From the NCBI RefSeq assembly GCF_016865445.1, contig NZ_AP024412.1:1054001-1118000 (forward strand): a DNA stretch of 64,000 nucleotides, written 5' to 3'. The notes under the pieces are model-generated. The model saw nothing but the letters and a program-made list of their open reading frames with translations. It was not told the DNA's origin and searched no databases. Below, in pieces: positions 41,979 to 53,568 of this stretch (the stretch's first letter is position 1; each line of letters opens with the position of its first letter). Position numbers and translations under genes: made by a program. The stretch comes from Mariniplasma anaerobium. GTDB lineage: Bacteria > Bacillota_I > Bacilli_A > Acholeplasmatales > Acholeplasmataceae.

Positions 41979-43676
41979 ATGAACACATATGTAGAAGTCA
42001 TTGAACCAAAGATTCAGTATAAAGATGAAAAAACAAATGAAATAAACGTCAAAAGGAAAGTTGCTGCTTACGCTCGTGTATCGACTGATGAAACCGATCA
42101 GTTAAACAGTTATCAAGTCCAAATCAAAGAATTCACAGAACGGATTAAAAACAATCCGGAATGGGAATTCGCAGGTATGTTTTCTGATGAAGGCATAACA
42201 GGAACTAATATGAAGAAGCGAATTGGCATGCAAAAAATGCTAGATGCTGCAAGAAATGGTGACATTGATATGATTATCACCAAATCAATCTCACGGCTTG
42301 CGAGAAACACAGTAGACATGCTTACCGTGATTAAAGAAATGCGAGAAATCAAAGTTGAGATCTACTTTGAAAAAGAAAACATCAGTAGTGCTGATCCAAA
42401 GATTGATTTCATCTTAACCATCATGTCTTCGATTGCCCAAGAGGAATCCAGAAACATCAGCGAGAATACCAAATGGGGATTTCGCAAACGCTTTGCACAA
42501 GGTCAGTTAATGATGACCACAACCCATTTCTTAGGATACGACAAAGATGATGAAGGTCAATTAATCATTAACCAGGAACAAGCAATAACCGTTAAATACA
42601 TCTTCAATCAATATTTAAATGGTATGGGTATTAGCAAACTTGCTAGACACTTAACTGAAAAAGGATATAAGAATGGTCGAGGTGTAGTCACTTGGTATTC
42701 TGATACTGTAAAAGAGATTTTACGAAATGAGAAATATGCTGGAGATTTAATGCTTCAAAAAACCGTAACAGTTGATTATCTTTCTCATAAAACAATTGCC
42801 AATGATGGACATGCAACAAAATACTATATCAAAGATAATCATGATGCCATCATTGACAGAGAAACTTTTGATATCGTGCAAACGATGATTCATGCAAGAG
42901 ACATCATCTTAGCCAATGATAACAAGGAGCGATTCAAGCATCTCGCCCAAAAACCTATCAAAGGACTTGTCTACTGTAGTAGATGCAAACGCATGTACCG
43001 TTCTAAAATGCACAACTCAGGAACGACATTCAAAAAAAGCATGCTGAAATGTCATACCGATAGAAACAATCCGCATAACTGTGATAATCCTTCTATTCAT
43101 GAGCCGTTAGTAGAACGTGCAACACTCCATCTCATCAAAGAGCTAACCAAGACAGAAGAGATGCAACAATCGCTTTTTGCTTTTATGGAAAAATCACTAC
43201 AACAAATTAATTCTCATGAACCATTGAAAAAACTCAAAGAAAAAAGTATTGATCTAGCCAATGAACTCAAAAAACACGTTAGAAGTAAAATTCGTTCAGG
43301 AATGTCTGATGAGGAATACGACAGAATCTACAGTGAAATCGAAGGTGAACTAGAACAATGTGAAATTGACATCGTAAATCTTAGAAATGAAATCAACCGA
43401 GAACTACTAACTAGAAGACGATTATATGCGTTAACGAACTTTATTGAATCCAACTATGAAGATAAACGCATCATCAAGAGCTTCTTTGGAATGATTCTTG
43501 TCGATGGCAAAAATCACCTAAAATATATCTTAGATGACACGTTTTCAATTATCGATGATTTACATGAAAAAATAGATATTATTAACAAATGCAAGCCCTT
43601 CATAAAGGGCAAATATTATGATGAGACAACAAATAATACAGTAACCTATGAGGTAATTAAATATGAAGGACATTAA
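41979..43676 (+). CDS. Large serine recombinase 1
   Basis: 565 residues. Resolvase domain with catalytic Ser35 (AYARVSTDETD), conserved SISRLARNTVDML and IMSSIAQEESRNISENTKWG. The recombinase domain follows (YSDTVKEILRNEKYAGDLML), then a zinc beta-ribbon (LVYCSRCKRMY..., two further Cys) and a coiled coil. SD AAAGGAGG nine bases before the ATG. Typical phage or element integrase that acts on short att sites. Confidence 0.93.
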   Translation: MNTYVEVIEPKIQYKDEKTNEINVKRKVAAYARVSTDETDQLNSYQVQIKEFTERIKNNPEWEFAGMFSDEGITGTNMKKRIGMQKMLDAARNGDIDMIITKSISRLARNTVDMLTVIKEMREIKVEIYFEKENISSADPKIDFILTIMSSIAQEESRNISENTKWGFRKRFAQGQLMMTTTHFLGYDKDDEGQLIINQEQAITVKYIFNQYLNGMGISKLARHLTEKGYKNGRGVVTWYSDTVKEILRNEKYAGDLMLQKTVTVDYLSHKTIANDGHATKYYIKDNHDAIIDRETFDIVQTMIHARDIILANDNKERFKHLAQKPIKGLVYCSRCKRMYRSKMHNSGTTFKKSMLKCHTDRNNPHNCDNPSIHEPLVERATLHLIKELTKTEEMQQSLFAFMEKSLQQINSHEPLKKLKEKSIDLANELKKHVRSKIRSGMSDEEYDRIYSEIEGELEQCEIDIVNLRNEINRELLTRRRLYALTNFIESNYEDKRIIKSFFGMILVDGKNHLKYILDDTFSIIDDLHEKIDIINKCKPFIKGKYYDETTNNTVTYEVIKYEGH

Positions 43677-45318
43677 AGTTATTGAATCCAATCAATCAAG
43701 AGGACATAAACATATTATTAAACGGGTCGCAGCGTATGCTCGAGTATCCACCAAACAAGAAATGCAAGAATCATCTTTAGATCTTCAAGTTAGGCACTAT
43801 GCTAAAGAAATCATTTTCAACCCAGATTATATTTTTGCTGGGATTTATTATGACCATGGAAAAAGTGGCACCTCAATGATCAAACGAGATGGTTTACAAG
43901 CGTTATTAAAAAAAGCATATGCTGGACATATTGATCTTGTGTTAGTTAAATCGTTATCACGCTTTGCGAGAAATACGATTGATGCGTTAAACGTTATCAG
44001 AGAAACAAGAAAACTAGGCGTTGAGTTCTTCTTTGAAAAAGAAAACCTATATTCATCAGACAGTACCATTGATATGATTCTTACCATGATGGCAGGGCTT
44101 GCTGAAGCAGAGTCTCAACAAATATCATCGAATATACGCTGGGGACACAGAAGTCGTGCAAAAAATGGAAAAGTTCATATATACCCTACATTTGGATATG
44201 ACATCACCAAAGATAGAAAATTCGTTATTAATGAAGCTCAAGCAAAAGCTGTTCGAAGTATCTATCAAATGTATCTTGAAGGTAAAAAAATAAATGAGAT
44301 CCTTATTTACTTACAAGACCAGGGTTTTAAAACAAGTAAGGATAAGGGATTCGATAATTATCAACAAATACGAAATATCTTATGCAATGAAAAATACATT
44401 GGTAAAGTAACCTATGGTAAAAGCTTTACTAAAATCGATGGACGAGAAAAAAAGGTTGTTATCAACAATGGAGAACAACCTAAATACATCATCAATAATC
44501 ACCATGAACCGATCATTGATATAGAAACCTATAATAAAGTCCAATCAATGTTTAAACAGCAAAGAGAAAAAAGGGCAAAGACTCAAAAAGCAGACTACAG
44601 TAATTATGAAAAGTTCGCATATTCTGTTCGACACGAAGCTTACTTGCAACGCAAACAAAAAGGGGTTGTAGATGATGAAGGTAGTGAACCTACACCTTAT
44701 TTCTGTAAATCGCAGGTCCCTGGTTTTTATGCTAAACACGCATCAAAGGTCCTCTTCCGTACTTTAAACGCACTGTCGCGAAAATTTGGCCGTATGGAAG
44801 CATTATTTGACGCCCAGGTTGATGACATACTCTCTAAACAGAAACTGTCAAAGAAACTAAGTAAACAAGAAAAAGTACTTGAAGATTATATGAGACAATA
44901 TTACAAGTTAGAACGAAAAGCTACAAAAGATAAAAAGGATCGAATGATGCTTTATGAGCTAGAAACGCTTATCATTCAGGAAAGTATGAATTATACGGCA
45001 TTAGAAGATGAATACAACTCCATTGAAGAACACTTTAGTCATGCACAAAACATAAAAAAACATATCAACGAACTGAAATATCCAACTGAAGCTTTAACGC
45101 CAGAGAATGTGAATGACATCTTTGAAGGGTTCCTTATTGAAGATTATGATAGATACATTGCATTCATTAATATATCTAATAAAGAACTCACTCCGGAATC
45201 AATGAAAAATGCAGTAACGAATCCGCCACTGCATACAGGTGCTTTTCAAACCACAGGTGCTTATAAATCCGCTGGACAATATGATGTAGAAATAAAGTGG
45301 AGCATCATTCTAATGTAA
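43663..45318 (+). CDS. Large serine recombinase 2
   Basis: 551 residues, 14-base overlap with recombinase 1; SD GAGGTAA. Catalytic Ser29 (AYARVSTKQEM), SLSRFARNTIDAL and MMAGLAEAESQQISSNIRWG are intact, as is the recombinase domain (YQQIRNILCNEKYIGKVTYG). The zinc-ribbon region has lost its paired cysteines (only one Cys remains), unlike recombinase 1. The C-terminus is long. The two proteins may act together, as CcrA/CcrB-type pairs do, but that is inference. Confidence 0.92.
   Translation: MKDIKVIESNQSRGHKHIIKRVAAYARVSTKQEMQESSLDLQVRHYAKEIIFNPDYIFAGIYYDHGKSGTSMIKRDGLQALLKKAYAGHIDLVLVKSLSRFARNTIDALNVIRETRKLGVEFFFEKENLYSSDSTIDMILTMMAGLAEAESQQISSNIRWGHRSRAKNGKVHIYPTFGYDITKDRKFVINEAQAKAVRSIYQMYLEGKKINEILIYLQDQGFKTSKDKGFDNYQQIRNILCNEKYIGKVTYGKSFTKIDGREKKVVINNGEQPKYIINNHHEPIIDIETYNKVQSMFKQQREKRAKTQKADYSNYEKFAYSVRHEAYLQRKQKGVVDDEGSEPTPYFCKSQVPGFYAKHASKVLFRTLNALSRKFGRMEALFDAQVDDILSKQKLSKKLSKQEKVLEDYMRQYYKLERKATKDKKDRMMLYELETLIIQESMNYTALEDEYNSIEEHFSHAQNIKKHINELKYPTEALTPENVNDIFEGFLIEDYDRYIAFINISNKELTPESMKNAVTNPPLHTGAFQTTGAYKSAGQYDVEIKWSIILM
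45202..45238. repeat. 37-bp repeat, copy 1 (inside recombinase 2 3' end)
   Basis: Contains the inverted repeat AATGCAGT/ACTGCAT around AACGAATCCGCC. A second copy lies at 46127-46163 outside any gene (see that entry), with only a few differences. Confidence 0.6.
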
Positions 45319-46191: not shown

Positions 46192-46350
46192 AATATCACA
46201 AAAGCATTTCTAAATATTCTTTCATTTTTACAACCGGTTGATGAACTTCTTTCCAATGATTTGTTCCAACAAAAGCATTATTTAAACTATTTGCGATATC
46301 AGGTTGAAACAATTGATTATAAAGTCTGTCTTCACAAATCCACCATGAAT
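46192..46350 (-). pseudogene. 3' fragment of a DUF6933-like gene (duplicate)
   Basis: 46201-46350 matches 49746-49895 with two mismatches in 150 bases, i.e. the last ~50 codons of the DUF6933-like gene at 49744. The fragment lacks the upstream part and its stop is shifted (Leu then TGA). The remaining gap up to 46562 holds nothing recognisable. Confidence 0.75.
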
Positions 46351-48120: not shown

Positions 48121-48199
48121 TCTATTTTCGTGATTATTAATAATTAATTAACTCTATTTTCGTGATTTTATACCTTTTATTATTTCCATTTTCGTGTAT
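48121..48199 (+). repeat. Three 15-bp direct repeats at 32-bp spacing upstream of the ATPase gene
   Basis: TCTATTTTCGTGATT at 48121 and 48153 (identical), and TCCATTTTCGTGTAT at 48185, exactly 32 bases (about three helical turns) apart. The last copy runs into a perfect -10 TATAAT (48197-48202). AGAGG at 48211 is the ribosome-binding site. Looks like an operator array on one DNA face. Confidence 0.7.
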
Positions 48200-48222
48200 A
48201 ATATAATTAAAGAGGTAATTTT

Positions 48223-49569
48223 ATGGAACTAAAAAGAAAATTATATAGTACTTTAATCGAATGGAAAAAAGAAAATGGAAAAACCGCCCTATTAATAGAG
48301 GGAGCAAGACGTGTTGGTAAAACGACAACAGCTCTTGAATTTGCAAAAAATGAATACAAGTCATATGTACTAATAGATTTCAGTATAGCTTCTAATGAAA
48401 TGAAATCTTTGTTTACAAAGTATGCTTCTTCTCTTGATGACTTCTTTTTCTTTATATCAACTTTAACAAATACAACTCTACATCATCGAGATACACTCAT
48501 CATTTTTGATGAAGTCCAATTGTTTCCTAAAGCTAGACAATTAATCAAGCACTTGGTAAAAGATAATCGTTATGATTATATTGAAACTGGATCTTTATTA
48601 TCGATAAAGCAAAATGTTAAAGACATCCTCATCCCTTCTGAAGAAAGGACTATGATTATGCACCCTCTGGATTTCGAAGAATTTTGCATGGCGACTGGAC
48701 ATATACAACTCTTCTCAATTATAAAAAAACATTTTGTCGATTTAAAACCACTTGGCCCAATTCACTCACAAGTTATGAAACTCTATAGACAATATTTGCT
48801 GGTTGGCGGGATGCCTCAAGCAGTACTAGAATTCATTCATTCAAATGATTACACCAAAGTGGATCAAGTAAAAAGAGACATTCTAAGGCTTTATAGAAAT
48901 GATATCGCTAAATATGCAAAGGGATATGAATCAAAAGTTTTACAAATATTTGATGAAATACCAGCTCAACTTTCAAAACACGAGAAAAAATTTAAGCTAG
49001 CATCTATATCTAAAGATGCACGTTTTCGAGAGTATGAAGATGCATTTATGTGGTTAGATGAAGCGATGCTTACAAATGCTTGTTTTAATGCAGATGATCC
49101 TCAAGTTGGACTTGCTTTATATAAAGACAGACTTACTTTAAAACTCTACATGGCTGACACAGGTTTGCTCATTAGTCATGCATATGATTCAACAAGTAAA
49201 ATGCATATAAAAATTGCAGAAAAAATTGTATCAGATCAACTAGAGGCGAACCATGGTATGTTGTTTGAAAATATTGTTGCTCAAGCTCTTAGAGTCAACA
49301 ACAAGAAGTTGTATTTTTATTCTAGAATCGATCAAGAAAACAGTCAAAACACAATGGAAATCGACTTCTTAATTAATGACCCTTATAACCCAAGTAAAAT
49401 AGCTCCAATAGAAGTAAAATCAAGTAAGCGTTACAAAACATCCTCTTTAAATAAATTTAAATCTAAATTTAAATCTCGAATTGGTCAAAGTTTTTTGTTG
49501 CATACAAAAGATTTAGCAATTAAAGATAACATCTACTATTTACCTATATATATGGTTAGCTTTCTTTAA
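48223..49569 (+). CDS. AAA_14/DUF4143 ATPase
   Basis: 448 residues. Walker A LIEGARRVGKTTTALEFA (GARRVGKT, about 26-33) and Walker B TLIIFDEVQLFPKARQ (about 89-104). IETGSLLSIK and HPLDFEEFCMATG follow, then a DUF4143 C-terminal half ending MEIDFLINDP and IAPIEVKSSKRYKTSSL, a nuclease-like (PD-D/ExK style) fold. Common on accessory DNA, with an unclear cellular role. Preceded by the 32-bp repeat array. Confidence 0.92.
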   Translation: MELKRKLYSTLIEWKKENGKTALLIEGARRVGKTTTALEFAKNEYKSYVLIDFSIASNEMKSLFTKYASSLDDFFFFISTLTNTTLHHRDTLIIFDEVQLFPKARQLIKHLVKDNRYDYIETGSLLSIKQNVKDILIPSEERTMIMHPLDFEEFCMATGHIQLFSIIKKHFVDLKPLGPIHSQVMKLYRQYLLVGGMPQAVLEFIHSNDYTKVDQVKRDILRLYRNDIAKYAKGYESKVLQIFDEIPAQLSKHEKKFKLASISKDARFREYEDAFMWLDEAMLTNACFNADDPQVGLALYKDRLTLKLYMADTGLLISHAYDSTSKMHIKIAEKIVSDQLEANHGMLFENIVAQALRVNNKKLYFYSRIDQENSQNTMEIDFLINDPYNPSKIAPIEVKSSKRYKTSSLNKFKSKFKSRIGQSFLLHTKDLAIKDNIYYLPIYMVSFL

Positions 49570-49619: not shown

Positions 49620-49743
49620 CTATAGTTATTCATCTTTGAATACCCGAAATACTGCCAGTCTAAAACCAGCATACCTTCTACTTTTGTATATACTAATTCT
49701 TTAAATATTATCAAGATAGAATTCTATATTAAGAATAATAGAA

Positions 49744-50247
49744 CTAAAGCATTTCTAAATATTCTTTCATTTTTACAACCGGTTGATGAACTTCTTTCCA
49801 ATGATTTGTTCCAACAAAAGCATTATTTAAACTATTTGCGATGTCAGGTTGAAACAATTGATTATAAAGTCTATCTTCACAAATCCACCATGAATCCTCA
49901 ACTGCTCTATTTAATTGAGCGACTAGAGTTCTATTTTTTGTTTTGCTATAAGTTACTTCTTTGATTTGATTCACATATTTCATTACAGTCTGCTGATCAT
50001 ATCCTTCAGTACCCATAGCAATTATAATTGCTTTTTGTAACATAAAAATTGGATCTTTAAAATCGCTCTTCTTTACTCCATAGAAAACGATGCAAAACCG
50101 AGTTAAATCATTCATTAAGATTAGTAATTTTTTTCGATTGATATTTATGAAATTTGCATGCCAAGCAAATAGATCATTATCAGTATCTTTTTCAATGACT
50201 TCAGGTTTTAGAAAATCTAATAACTTCTTTGTACAAGAAATATGCAT
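49744..50247 (-). CDS. DUF6933-like protein
   Basis: 167 residues. N-terminus MHISCTKKLLDFLKPE and the segment AWHANFININRKKLLILMND with RFCIVFYGVKK match the DUF6933 group as I recall it. Its last 150 coding bases are duplicated at 46201-46350. No known biochemical activity; in this island it may be an accessory or toxin-like gene. Confidence 0.6.
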   Translation of the reverse strand: MHISCTKKLLDFLKPEVIEKDTDNDLFAWHANFININRKKLLILMNDLTRFCIVFYGVKKSDFKDPIFMLQKAIIIAMGTEGYDQQTVMKYVNQIKEVTYSKTKNRTLVAQLNRAVEDSWWICEDRLYNQLFQPDIANSLNNAFVGTNHWKEVHQPVVKMKEYLEML

Positions 50248-50320: not shown

Positions 50321-51424
50321 CTATGCTTCATTAGAAATTGTTTCTTTGATCTCTTTAATAATCATTTGAATTTTTTTAAGTGATAGATTAAACAATTTCG
50401 CAATATCAATTAAATCTGTCTCAGTTGGTTTTCCATTTCCTAAAACTGTCATCTCATGTTCAAATTTATGTTTAGTTTGCGTAATATCATAAAATGGCGA
50501 TAACTTATAGCCACCCTTATTGTCATCATATAAAAACGCTGTATTTTTACCATGATCATCTTTGTTTTCATAAAGCACATTAAAACACATACGTTTATAT
50601 GCCTCATACAGATCATCTTGATCTATACATATTTTTTGAATAACTTGAAATAAATGTGAATAATCTAGATTTGGTATTTTAGGTGTGGTTTCTAATAAAG
50701 CAGATAAACTAATCATATGGATGCGTTTTTTGCCAATTTTATCAAATCGCTTTGCGCCAAAATACCCACTATGATTTTTTGAAGGAAACAATTTACATTG
50801 ATTTACATTGATTTTAGCTTTTAAAGCCAATAAATTGGCTTGATATTCTAATTTCCCAATGCCTTTTGGATCAATTGAAGAAGAAAATTTGACAATCCAA
50901 TCTTCTTCATCCATAGTGATATGTACTTTAGGTCTTGCACCACCACTGGCTCCACCAAGTTCATAAATTTCATCAAAATTATTTTTTGTAGCAGAATTTT
51001 CAAAAATTTGTTTAATCTCTGTTGCTAAAGTGTCTAAATCAGAATATTTTCCTATATTTTTTTCACTTTGAGTTGGTTCATATGTTAGAGCCCCTAAGCC
51101 GTTATCATTGATTAGTGATAATTTTGTTAATGCTGATATTTTATCAAAATTTATGCCTTTTTTAGCAAGCATTCTTCTCATCAATAATTCTCCCCATCCA
51201 TCAGGTAATGAATCAAAAAAGACACCAAAGAGTCCATTAAAATGTTCTGATTTTGAAATGTATACTTTATCGGTTAAAGGCAGGTGAAAAGGGGATATAG
51301 AAAATCCGTTTTCTACCCAATTTTTATCATATTGAAAAGCAATTGTTTGATTTGATAAAGTTTCTAAATACCCAACCACTTTATGATTATACTTAACAAC
51401 TAATCGTTTAATATCAATGTTCAT
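50321..51424 (-). CDS. hipA: HipA-family toxin kinase
   Basis: 367 residues. N-terminal HipA_N (VVGYLETLSNQTIAFQYD, SPFHLPLT, LPDGWGELLMRRML). Kinase core with GGASGGARPKVHI (about 157-169), catalytic loop NKDDHGKN (about 287-294, Asp289) and metal-binding DITQ (Asp313). It resembles serine/threonine kinases that phosphorylate a tRNA synthetase. 4-base overlap with hipB. All key residues present, so likely active. Confidence 0.9.
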   Translation of the reverse strand: MNIDIKRLVVKYNHKVVGYLETLSNQTIAFQYDKNWVENGFSISPFHLPLTDKVYISKSEHFNGLFGVFFDSLPDGWGELLMRRMLAKKGINFDKISALTKLSLINDNGLGALTYEPTQSEKNIGKYSDLDTLATEIKQIFENSATKNNFDEIYELGGASGGARPKVHITMDEEDWIVKFSSSIDPKGIGKLEYQANLLALKAKINVNQCKLFPSKNHSGYFGAKRFDKIGKKRIHMISLSALLETTPKIPNLDYSHLFQVIQKICIDQDDLYEAYKRMCFNVLYENKDDHGKNTAFLYDDNKGGYKLSPFYDITQTKHKFEHEMTVLGNGKPTETDLIDIAKLFNLSLKKIQMIIKEIKETISNEA

Positions 51425-51702
51425 CTTCTAATATCCTTTACAATTGGATTTTTAAATATTTCATTAAAATCCTCTAAACAATCTAATACAGAACTTATAG
51501 CTAACAATGCATGTAGAGAAATATCACCATTGGTTTCAAATCTTCTAATTGAGCCATAACTTACACCTGAGCGCTTACTGAGCTCTTTTTGTGTAATGCC
51601 AAACTCCTTTCTTCTTTGTTTTACTCTTTTTACAATGTCATATTTTATAGACTGTACTGTTATGGTAGGGACAAAATCACCTATATCAAATTTATTTTTC
51701 AT
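51421..51702 (-). CDS. hipB: HipB-family XRE antitoxin
   Basis: 93 residues. HTH VKQRRKEFGITQKELSKRSG with VSYGSIRRFETNGDISLHA, then a short dimer tail. Paired with hipA and probably autoregulated through the palindromes just upstream. The start ATG has no visible SD and lies 10 bases from the -10, so the transcript may be almost leaderless. Confidence 0.85.
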   Translation of the reverse strand: MKNKFDIGDFVPTITVQSIKYDIVKRVKQRRKEFGITQKELSKRSGVSYGSIRRFETNGDISLHALLAISSVLDCLEDFNEIFKNPIVKDIRR

Positions 51703-51974: not shown

Positions 51975-52925
51975 CTAATATTGTCTTATTTCATCAGGAA
52001 TTAATTCAGTTTTTAATACTGCCTTCAACGTAAGAATACACTTCTCATAACTAACTTTTTTATATATAAATCCTAAAGTGACTTCGTTAAAGTCTGATTC
52101 AAATACTTGTTTATCAATGATTTCTTGTAATATTTCTTTAGGTTTTGAACCAGGTTTTGATGATGGATTGCGATCGGAAAAGTGTTGTCTATCAGACAAG
52201 ACTTCATCAGTTATATCTGCAACTACTTTTTTATCTAACAACCCACTGTTCCAAATCATGTGAATATCATAAATATGTCTTGAATACCTTTCATAAGTTC
52301 CTTCTAAATGATAGTCACACAAAGCGAACAACTTATCTATAAATGTTCTATCTATTGATTGAATACTCGTTTTAAATGTCTCTAAATTATACTTTTTGAT
52401 TAAATTCGGCCCTTCTTCTAGATCTAATAGGTGTTTCGTTATATAGTTACTAACATTTTTCTTTATACAAGGGTACGGTTTATAAACTGATATTGTTTCG
52501 ATTTTAATATGCGGTATCATCTCAGGTGTAGATTCAAATAATCTTTCAAATTCAATTTCATAATGATTAAAATCTCTATCCGATTGAACCTCATCAGGAT
52601 TTAGAAATTTCATTCCAAGTTTATCAATAGTAGCGATAATATTGTCTTTCAATCTTTTTCTTAAACCTCGACCTGCTTTAGCATTTGGAAAATTAATCGT
52701 TAAATCAATATCTTCTGAAAATCTATCAATCACATTATAGCATTTTGATAATGATGTCCCGCCTTTAAATACAATGTCCACATTGTTTTCAAGTTTAGAT
52801 AACTCTTTTAAGAATAATGATACATAATAATCTTTTTCTATTTGATGATTTTGAAGTCCTGGTGTATTTGATGCAGTAGCAATTATAAGTTCTCTAAAAT
52901 CCGCTTTATTTGTGTGTAAATGCAT
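51975..52925 (-). CDS. AbiEii/AbiGii nucleotidyltransferase toxin
   Basis: 316 residues from the ATG at 52925, chosen for its GGGAGG at 5-base spacing (an ATG at 52976 has none). IVFKGGTSLSKCYNVIDRFS with EDIDLTINF is the nucleotidyltransferase core (GGTS..., D-I-D). AbiEii-type enzymes act on tRNA or other RNA when the AbiEi partner is lost. It overlaps the partner gene by 20 bases. Type IV toxin-antitoxin and abortive infection role known for the family. Confidence 0.88.
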   Translation of the reverse strand: MHLHTNKADFRELIIATASNTPGLQNHQIEKDYYVSLFLKELSKLENNVDIVFKGGTSLSKCYNVIDRFSEDIDLTINFPNAKAGRGLRKRLKDNIIATIDKLGMKFLNPDEVQSDRDFNHYEIEFERLFESTPEMIPHIKIETISVYKPYPCIKKNVSNYITKHLLDLEEGPNLIKKYNLETFKTSIQSIDRTFIDKLFALCDYHLEGTYERYSRHIYDIHMIWNSGLLDKKVVADITDEVLSDRQHFSDRNPSSKPGSKPKEILQEIIDKQVFESDFNEVTLGFIYKKVSYEKCILTLKAVLKTELIPDEIRQY

Positions 52926-53568
52926 GAGTCCCTCCCAATTTGTAAAACTGTATTTGTGCATCCTTTGGATATTCATCTACAATATTTTCAATCTCTTCAT
53001 TTGATAAGTTTAACTCATTTAGATAATTGCCAATAATCTCTTTTGAATCACTGAGTGAATATTCACTGAATTTCTTAAAATTGATTAATAGATCTAAAAC
53101 TTGAAGCAGCTTATAATTATGGCTTGTAACTTTAACCCTTGCTTGATTAATAACCACTCTAATGTTTTTCACCATAATTGTTCTTTTCTTCTTTGATACC
53201 TTATTAGAATATATAACTAAATCACTAGATGTTTGTGTAGTTAATCTTAATGCATTTGCCATATAAAATCCGCTTCTATATCCAATTATATCGTTATCTT
53301 CGTTCTTAATATACTTTCTATTTACAGCGTCTTCTGAATTCAGTACAGCCGTCTTTAAAAGTCTATTTGGATTTGGCAATCCATATACACCATTTTTAGA
53401 TTTTACCAATTTTTCTTGTTCGTGTAATCTTCTAATTGATTCTCTAATTGTACCCTGATTAACATCAGGAAAAGTATCATATACTTCTTTTAAAAGAAAT
53501 GGTTCACTAAATTCATATTTTTTTTCAATATGATCATATAATTGATCAATTATTTTCTTCTTTTTCAT
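52906..53568 (-). CDS. AbiEi-like antitoxin partner
   Basis: 220 residues, SD GGAGGT. Winged-helix N-terminus (FLLKEVYDTFPDVNQGTIRE, RLHEQEKLVKSKNGVYGL) followed by an AbiEi-like body (GYRSGFYMANALRLTTQTSS, VYSNKVSKKKRTI-like). Represses the operon and neutralises AbiEii in known systems. It has the expected order and overlap. Confidence 0.75.
   Translation of the reverse strand: MKKKKIIDQLYDHIEKKYEFSEPFLLKEVYDTFPDVNQGTIRESIRRLHEQEKLVKSKNGVYGLPNPNRLLKTAVLNSEDAVNRKYIKNEDNDIIGYRSGFYMANALRLTTQTSSDLVIYSNKVSKKKRTIMVKNIRVVINQARVKVTSHNYKLLQVLDLLINFKKFSEYSLSDSKEIIGNYLNELNLSNEEIENIVDEYPKDAQIQFYKLGGTHAFTHK

Follow-up and report, generated by a model that had tools for sequence, protein, structure and literature searches.

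Among the closest described systems is PDC-S01, a single-gene defence candidate in which an ATPase is fused to a PD-(D/E)-X-K domain and which, in the available passages of PMC12988326, ranks as the fourth most common prokaryotic defence (29,494 bacterial and 9,986 archaeal cases). In the accessible part of a rumen survey, PDC-S01 is the most frequent individual locus (10,358; PMC13356809). The candidate is the same gene as the one analysed here, and the available PMC12988326 passages describe no promoter element (0 matches to the word 'promoter'); the accessible portion of PMC11514479 makes no mention of PDC-S01. A direct-repeat operator has been described for a restriction-modification island, where the excerpts available show repression by RptR, a separate repressor that uses 9 bp repeats (PMC12255303). 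Compared to the RptR operator, the repeats described here have a period near 33 bp, are specific to each paralog and have the ATPase-nuclease itself as their likely reader. A search of open-access PMC, with preprints outside its scope, found no published description of them. The PDC-S01 candidate, its ATPase-nuclease make-up and the direct-repeat operators of a defence island are already known; the new element is a self-specific array in front of the PDC-S01 ATPase, which the sequences suggest is best read as an autoregulatory operator array.

We analysed a 64,000-nucleotide stretch of Mariniplasma anaerobium DNA (the window), in which the array, the presumed promoter elements and the ATPase gene lie on the + strand. 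The first repeat copy, the 15-mer TCTATTTTCGTGATT, occupies positions 48121–48135 and is followed by an identical copy at 48153–48167 and by a variant with 3 mismatches, TCCATTTTCGTGTAT, at 48185–48199, giving array steps of 32 and 32 bp. The third copy is 23 nt 5′ of the ATPase gene (start 48223) and overlaps a presumed −10 element, a TATAAT picked by eye at 48197–48202 and overlapped by a second TATAAT at 48202–48207; a presumed ribosome-binding site, AAGAGG, is inferred from the sequence at 48210–48215. The exact coordinates confirm the original prediction of three 15-bp repeats in 32-bp steps, the third of them a variant that sits on the −10.

We compared the array to its genomic background. 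The exact 15-mer TCTATTTTCGTGATT has 2 occurrences in the 1.9-Mb genome, both in this array, and the paired pattern TTTTCGTG-N22-28-TTTTCGTG matches only at this array genome-wide (2 forward and 0 reverse matches; controls 0 and 0). Within the 250-nt upstream region, the three-copy score at a spacing of 31–35 bp was equalled by 0 of 3000 dinucleotide shuffles, and the score at any spacing from 14 to 60 bp by 0 of 1000. Taken singly, the 15-mer is not enriched, either at up to 3 mismatches in the window (9 matches versus 7.1 expected) or at up to 2 mismatches in the genome (18 versus 22 for the reversed pattern). The signal of the window array is carried by exact repetition and spacing, and not by the 15-mer alone.

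The gene behind the array (48223–49569) encodes a 448-residue ATPase-nuclease with profile matches to AAA_14 (77.2 bits; cut-off 27), DUF4143 (86.2 bits; cut-off 28.1) and PADLOC PDC-S01 (model PDLC04792, E 1.8e-113 across residues 3–448). A protein search at E 1e-3 found no second relative in its own genome. The AlphaFold2 model, built with 35 sequences (pLDDT 87.2, pTM 0.87), lays out an AAA+ core at about residues 1–158, a helical part, a winged-helix-like region and a PD-(D/E)xK-like domain. The predicted winged-helix region spans codons 236–310 (48928–49152), with a recognition helix at about residues 268–280; the label is a reading of helix and strand order in the model, where mean pLDDT is 59 for residues 261–270 and 84 for residues 271–280, and the fragment modelled alone folds poorly (pLDDT 60.8). 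The nuclease-like domain (codons 344–441; 49252–49545) is assigned from the model and from conserved residues: E349, E379, D381 and K399 are invariant across the 35 sequences and E397 is conserved in at least 90% of them, as catalytic-type residues of a putative PD-(D/E)xK nuclease.

We then measured how often such arrays precede related genes. A first scan of genome contigs yielded 40 ATPase relatives and 36 upstream regions, most of which showed repeat rows by eye. The full family set comprises 161 non-redundant genes, after dropping 33 duplicates, 33 genes without an N-terminus and 3 with short upstream DNA. A three-copy score of at least 20 out of 24 was found at 31–35 bp for 83 of the 161 genes, compared to 1, 2, 0, 0 and 0 genes at 16–20, 21–25, 26–30, 36–40 and 41–45 bp, and for only 1 of 156 downstream regions. 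Among 18 held-out genes, chosen for diversity from the 59 plasmid records and 12 phage-collection records with a match (sources include Segatella, Agathobacter, Collinsella, Fusobacterium, Glaesserella and Acinetobacter), 11 were positive at 31–35 bp and 7 failed, with 1 positive in 90 gene-spacing tests across five other bands. The 92 genes that pass either the three-copy score or the shuffle test (p about 0.01) carry three copies (71 genes), four (19) or five (2); a median of 43.5 nt separates the end of their last 12-mer from the point where the profile match begins.

Steps of 33/33 are found most often (48 of 83 genes), followed by 32/32 (14 genes). The claim that a protein would see all copies on one face of the DNA holds for the window, where 32 bp corresponds to 3.05 turns at 10.5 bp/turn, but only roughly for the family, as a 33-bp step rotates by about 50 degrees per copy. 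Without slight unwinding of the DNA, the copies in most relatives would follow a shallow spiral. A family-wide EM consensus, tTnnaAAAAnGTGnaaa, is weak, with seeds ending on different shifts and 24 of 90 arrays scoring under 3, indicating that the family has no single fixed motif; when both strands were allowed, 68 of the 90 arrays had one orientation.

The arrays are restricted to a single subfamily. Midpoint rooting of a 157-gene tree separates an ingroup of 140, including the window gene, from an outgroup of 17. Counting three-copy or strong two-copy rows, an array at 31–35 bp precedes 95 of the 140 ingroup genes and 0 of the 17 genes in the sister subfamily. At six other spacing bands, the ingroup counts are 1, 3, 0, 1, 1 and 0 of 140, and the outgroup has 2 rows at 21–25 bp and 2 at 46–50 bp. 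The 45 ingroup genes that fail the criterion include, by eye, many with weak, degraded or two-copy rows and some with none. Upstream of archaeal DUF4143 genes, whose gene starts are approximate, we found an array in 0 of 27 cases; these come from the phylum of a Euryarchaeota record (L049), where the family model matches 15 of 23 genomes, 29 upstream regions were tried and 2 were too short. The protein query had no match in the 23 genomes at E 1e-15. In a further phylum, that of genome G245, relatives at E 1e-30 were present in 2 of 99 genomes, G245 included, and this phylum is consequently little sampled.

The PADLOC models divide along the same line: the query and two ingroup genes have PDLC04792 or 04786 as their first match, and two outgroup genes have PDLC04790. 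The PDC-S01 label covers at least two subfamilies, one array-bearing and one array-less, and published survey counts therefore probably mix them. Presence of the array divides the candidate family in two. The element does not accompany DUF4143 ATPases in general, as it is limited to one subfamily (0 of 17 and 0 of 27 outside it).

We also searched from the DNA alone, using AAANGTG three times at 32–34 bp as the pattern across 392 genomes, several of which were already the source of genes in the 161-gene set. The pattern had 67 matches in 33 genomes, versus 14 for the reversed pattern. When one locus per genome was examined in 30 genomes, an ATPase was located 5–183 nt downstream of 18 loci, and all 18 ATPases, two of them in fragments, are closer to ingroup genes than to outgroup genes. 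The remaining 12 matches have no ATPase behind them, and some are likely chance matches inside genes. Together with the ingroup (95 of 140) and held-out (11 of 18) counts, this search strongly supports the idea that a conserved control element precedes genes of this family.

Several rows found in these searches stand apart. Repeat rows without an ATPase behind them occur at L356, L360, L370, L374 and L375, the last of which keeps only a short start similar, on our reading, to that of the ATPase; such rows are possibly relics, or other genes could be under the same control. A tblastn search at E 1e-3 found no ATPase near rows of this kind, except for weak matches at L363 and L375. The row at L363 (G228:C2) has the core AAAAAGGTGAAA, and its weak match nearby (E 1.6e-5) is to the array-less subfamily. 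Rows at 33–34 bp with the core AAAGGTGCAA or AAACGTGCAA occur at L352, L369, L373 and L378, where they precede ingroup ATPases, and at G042:C29:18094-18201, outside the 16 places in G042 with a match. Scans of viral contigs with four paired patterns gave 43, 1, 13 and 13 loci (70), none near an ATPase; the scans are uninformative, because variable-gap patterns with 18 to 20 fixed bases can match by chance in so large a collection.

We next considered which molecule uses the repeats. Genome G242 holds 14 paralogs with arrays (of 17 matches), and their repeats differ between paralogs and are preserved within each row. In genome G042, 5 of 16 matches pass the criterion and the repeats are again different. 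The repeat sequence is specific to the adjacent gene, one property expected of an autoregulatory operator array, which would in addition be bound directly by the encoded protein and affect transcription. Among pairs with less than 40% protein identity, arrays from the same genome are no more alike than arrays from different genomes (Mann–Whitney p 0.49), which argues against a shared host factor, as arrays read by such a factor should be more alike within a genome.

The more alike two of the proteins are, the more alike are their repeats (rho 0.21 over 90 genes, versus 0.085 as the largest of 500 permutations). With overall identity removed, the best 20-column window is residues 256–275 (r 0.168), compared to a largest window r of 0.152 in 100 permutations, which ignore relatedness and were scanned every 4 columns where the real data were scanned at every column; of 1000 column sets drawn at random with matched variability, 3 equalled the best window. 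R267, R269 and A266 are the top three single covarying columns and lie around the predicted start of the recognition helix, and a second peak is located in the nuclease domain at about residues 362–395. Repeats contain GTG in 40 of 53 genes with R267 versus 6 of 37 without it, CGGAC in 5 of 6 genes with F at 266 versus 0 of 84 others, and TGCG in 7 of 7 genes with T274-F275 versus 4 of 83 others; these classes were chosen after inspection, R267 after the covariation scan, and they are largely clades, so that Fisher's p overstates the links. On independent tree pairs, the link between R267 and GTG has the same direction (an average of 3.9 versus 0.3 pairs) without reaching significance, at a median p of 0.22, or 0.125 for a wider trait.

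The original prediction named the ATPase or a partner as the protein that acts on the repeats. The paralog-specific repeats, together with covariation near the predicted recognition helix, lend indirect support to the ATPase, and a partner is the less likely of the two, as inspection of 12 annotated plasmid loci by eye shows no product that recurs within 1.5 kb of the gene (one further locus, without annotation, was left out). A host regulator or partner protein could nonetheless read the repeats in place of the ATPase, since a dedicated regulator acting on direct repeats can run a defence island, as the RptR excerpts show (PMC12255303), and 5 of the 12 loci have transcription regulators of various kinds within 1.5 kb. 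Against this, paralogs in one genome have different repeats, the repeats follow the ATPase sequence and no single neighbour is recurrent, which makes a host or partner protein very improbable as the reader.

The repeats could also act as RNA. In type III toxin-antitoxin systems, a tandem-repeat antitoxin RNA precedes the toxin gene, and the present locus shares with them a tandem-repeat row, of about 33 nt per unit, before a single gene that is possibly a toxin. It differs in that tests of folding, family match and termination found no RNA features: the window array folds no better than its shuffles (z +1.27; 188 of 200 fold at least as well), it has no Rfam match at E 1 and no terminator-like site was found at the window locus. 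Moreover, only about 12–18 of 33 nt are conserved between copies by eye, and the density of −10-like sites peaks downstream of the last copy. An antitoxin-like RNA is accordingly the most doubtful of the explanations and can almost be set aside.

With the ATPase as the preferred reader, the position of the promoter bears on how the array would act. A promoter scan at the window locus found no sigma-70-like site on the + strand and recognised no −35. Across the family, exact TATAAT is most frequent in the interval from the last copy to the start codon, at 10.6 per kb; the density is 3.5 between copies, 1.4 in the DNA preceding the array and 0.9 within the last copy. The row thus tends to lie over the promoter or upstream of it. 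The chosen −10-like site is downstream of the last copy in 44 of 81 genes, inside or overlapping the array in 30 and upstream in 7; 9 further genes have no −10-like site.

Based on the sequence comparisons, we hold with reasonable confidence that each ATPase binds the array in front of its own gene and controls the promoter there, most likely by negative autoregulation. The three repeats would form an operator array for the ATPase encoded directly behind them, with one protomer, or dimer, held on each unit of about 33 bp by its winged-helix domain, and with the start of the recognition helix contacting a CGTG-like core. Adjacent protomers, about three turns apart, would fill the row jointly through AAA+ contacts. 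At the window locus, an occupied copy 3 would cover the presumed −10 and, because the last copy sits on this element, occupancy would most likely block RNA polymerase. The protein would then keep its own level low until its ATP state, the binding of a partner or infection alters its grip. The computations show the array, its spacing, its confinement to one subfamily, its paralog specificity and its covariation with the protein; direct binding, the sign of control and the cooperativity, and with them the cooperative repression of the original prediction, as well as the link to infection, are parts of this mechanism that we infer.

The same promoter data could indicate positive control, in which a small amount of the ATPase, or a form of it triggered by infection, switches its own gene on. 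The absence of a recognised −35 on the + strand at the window also fits an activated promoter, and the peak of TATAAT after the last copy, with 44 of 81 sites located there, is an activator's layout. Repression is likelier, given that copy 3 overlaps the presumed −10 in the window and that the chosen site is inside or overlapping the array in 30 of 81 genes; we regard activation as unlikely, though worth keeping in view.

The fold of the ATPase raises a further alternative. The top matches in a second-look structural alignment are two archaeal ATPases, 2qen (model residues 1–321; Z 16.5, rmsd 4.7, 268 aligned, 15% identity) and 2fna/SSO1545 (residues 1–320; Z 15.5, rmsd 3.9, 263 aligned, 13% identity), which have a fold in common with the ATPase, although fold alone is no sign of function. 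NLR, CED-4, Avs5 and ORC proteins come next. Foldseek alone ranked archaeal ORC2 first, and the ORC/Cdc6-type comparison is one of fold only (Foldseek 1w5t E 4.5e-6, TM-score 0.38 by query; VIA Z 11.5); a phmmer search of the ATPase against PDB sequences had no match at E 10. Plasmid Rep proteins and DnaA/ORC-type initiators bind iterons, which are rows of direct repeats, and an initiator may control its own gene. The present arrays are likewise rows of direct repeats and the ATPase fold is partly ORC-like, but they differ in having 3–5 copies near 33 bp before one gene.

The array could be mainly a site of assembly or self-marking, on which an ATPase oligomer forms and its nuclease is kept inactive or poised, with control of the gene as a secondary role. 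The resemblance to archaeal ATPases, NLR/STAND proteins and ORC, the conserved nuclease residues and the arrays of 3 to 5 copies by the criterion used would suit such a role, but some rows have no gene and no result here separates it from plain autoregulation; we consider it distinctly improbable as the main function. A broader speculation, to which we give little though somewhat more weight, is that the ORC/NLR-like ATPase-nuclease is a sensor tethered to its own chromosomal address. A small oligomer on the 33-bp-unit array would limit dose and hold the nuclease poised, orthogonal copies would coexist as helix and array drift together, and a loss of occupancy during infection, by take-over of the DNA or a change in ATP, would release or induce the nuclease.

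The self-specific array offers a first handle on PDC-S01, namely DNA that the protein probably binds, and a ready-made probe for binding and structure work. Across the family, arrays and ATPases would constitute many natural regulator–operator pairs.

We compared the window to seven near relatives and found that DNA similarity is confined to the array and gene (blastn, E 1e-3). Similarity starts inside the array for five of them, at 48159 (L013 and its duplicate L050), 48161 (L012, Sphaerochaetaceae) and 48193 (L014 and L051), and inside the gene, at 48262, for two (L010 and L011). It ends within the gene for all seven, at 49458–49554. No flanking DNA matched in the seven relatives, of which L011 and L012 have under 200 nt upstream. 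These boundaries fit a travelling unit that would consist of array and gene.

In the surroundings, a 159-bp direct repeat (97%) is present at 46192–46350 and 49737–49895, as a copy of the 3′ end of a DUF6933 gene (49744–50247), and the 3.4 kb enclosed by its copies contains a PRiA4_ORF3-like gene, two small ORFs and the array with its ATPase. In a congener (L225), both 159-bp copies map to one place within the 3.6 kb compared. The repeat with its bracketed 3.4 kb looks like the product of an insertion or duplication event. Two adjacent ORFs at 41979–45318 (565 and 551 aa) are large serine recombinases by eye, and the same island also carries HipA and HTH genes (50321–51702) and an AbiEii gene with a DUF6088-like partner, the latter below the cut-off (51975–53568).
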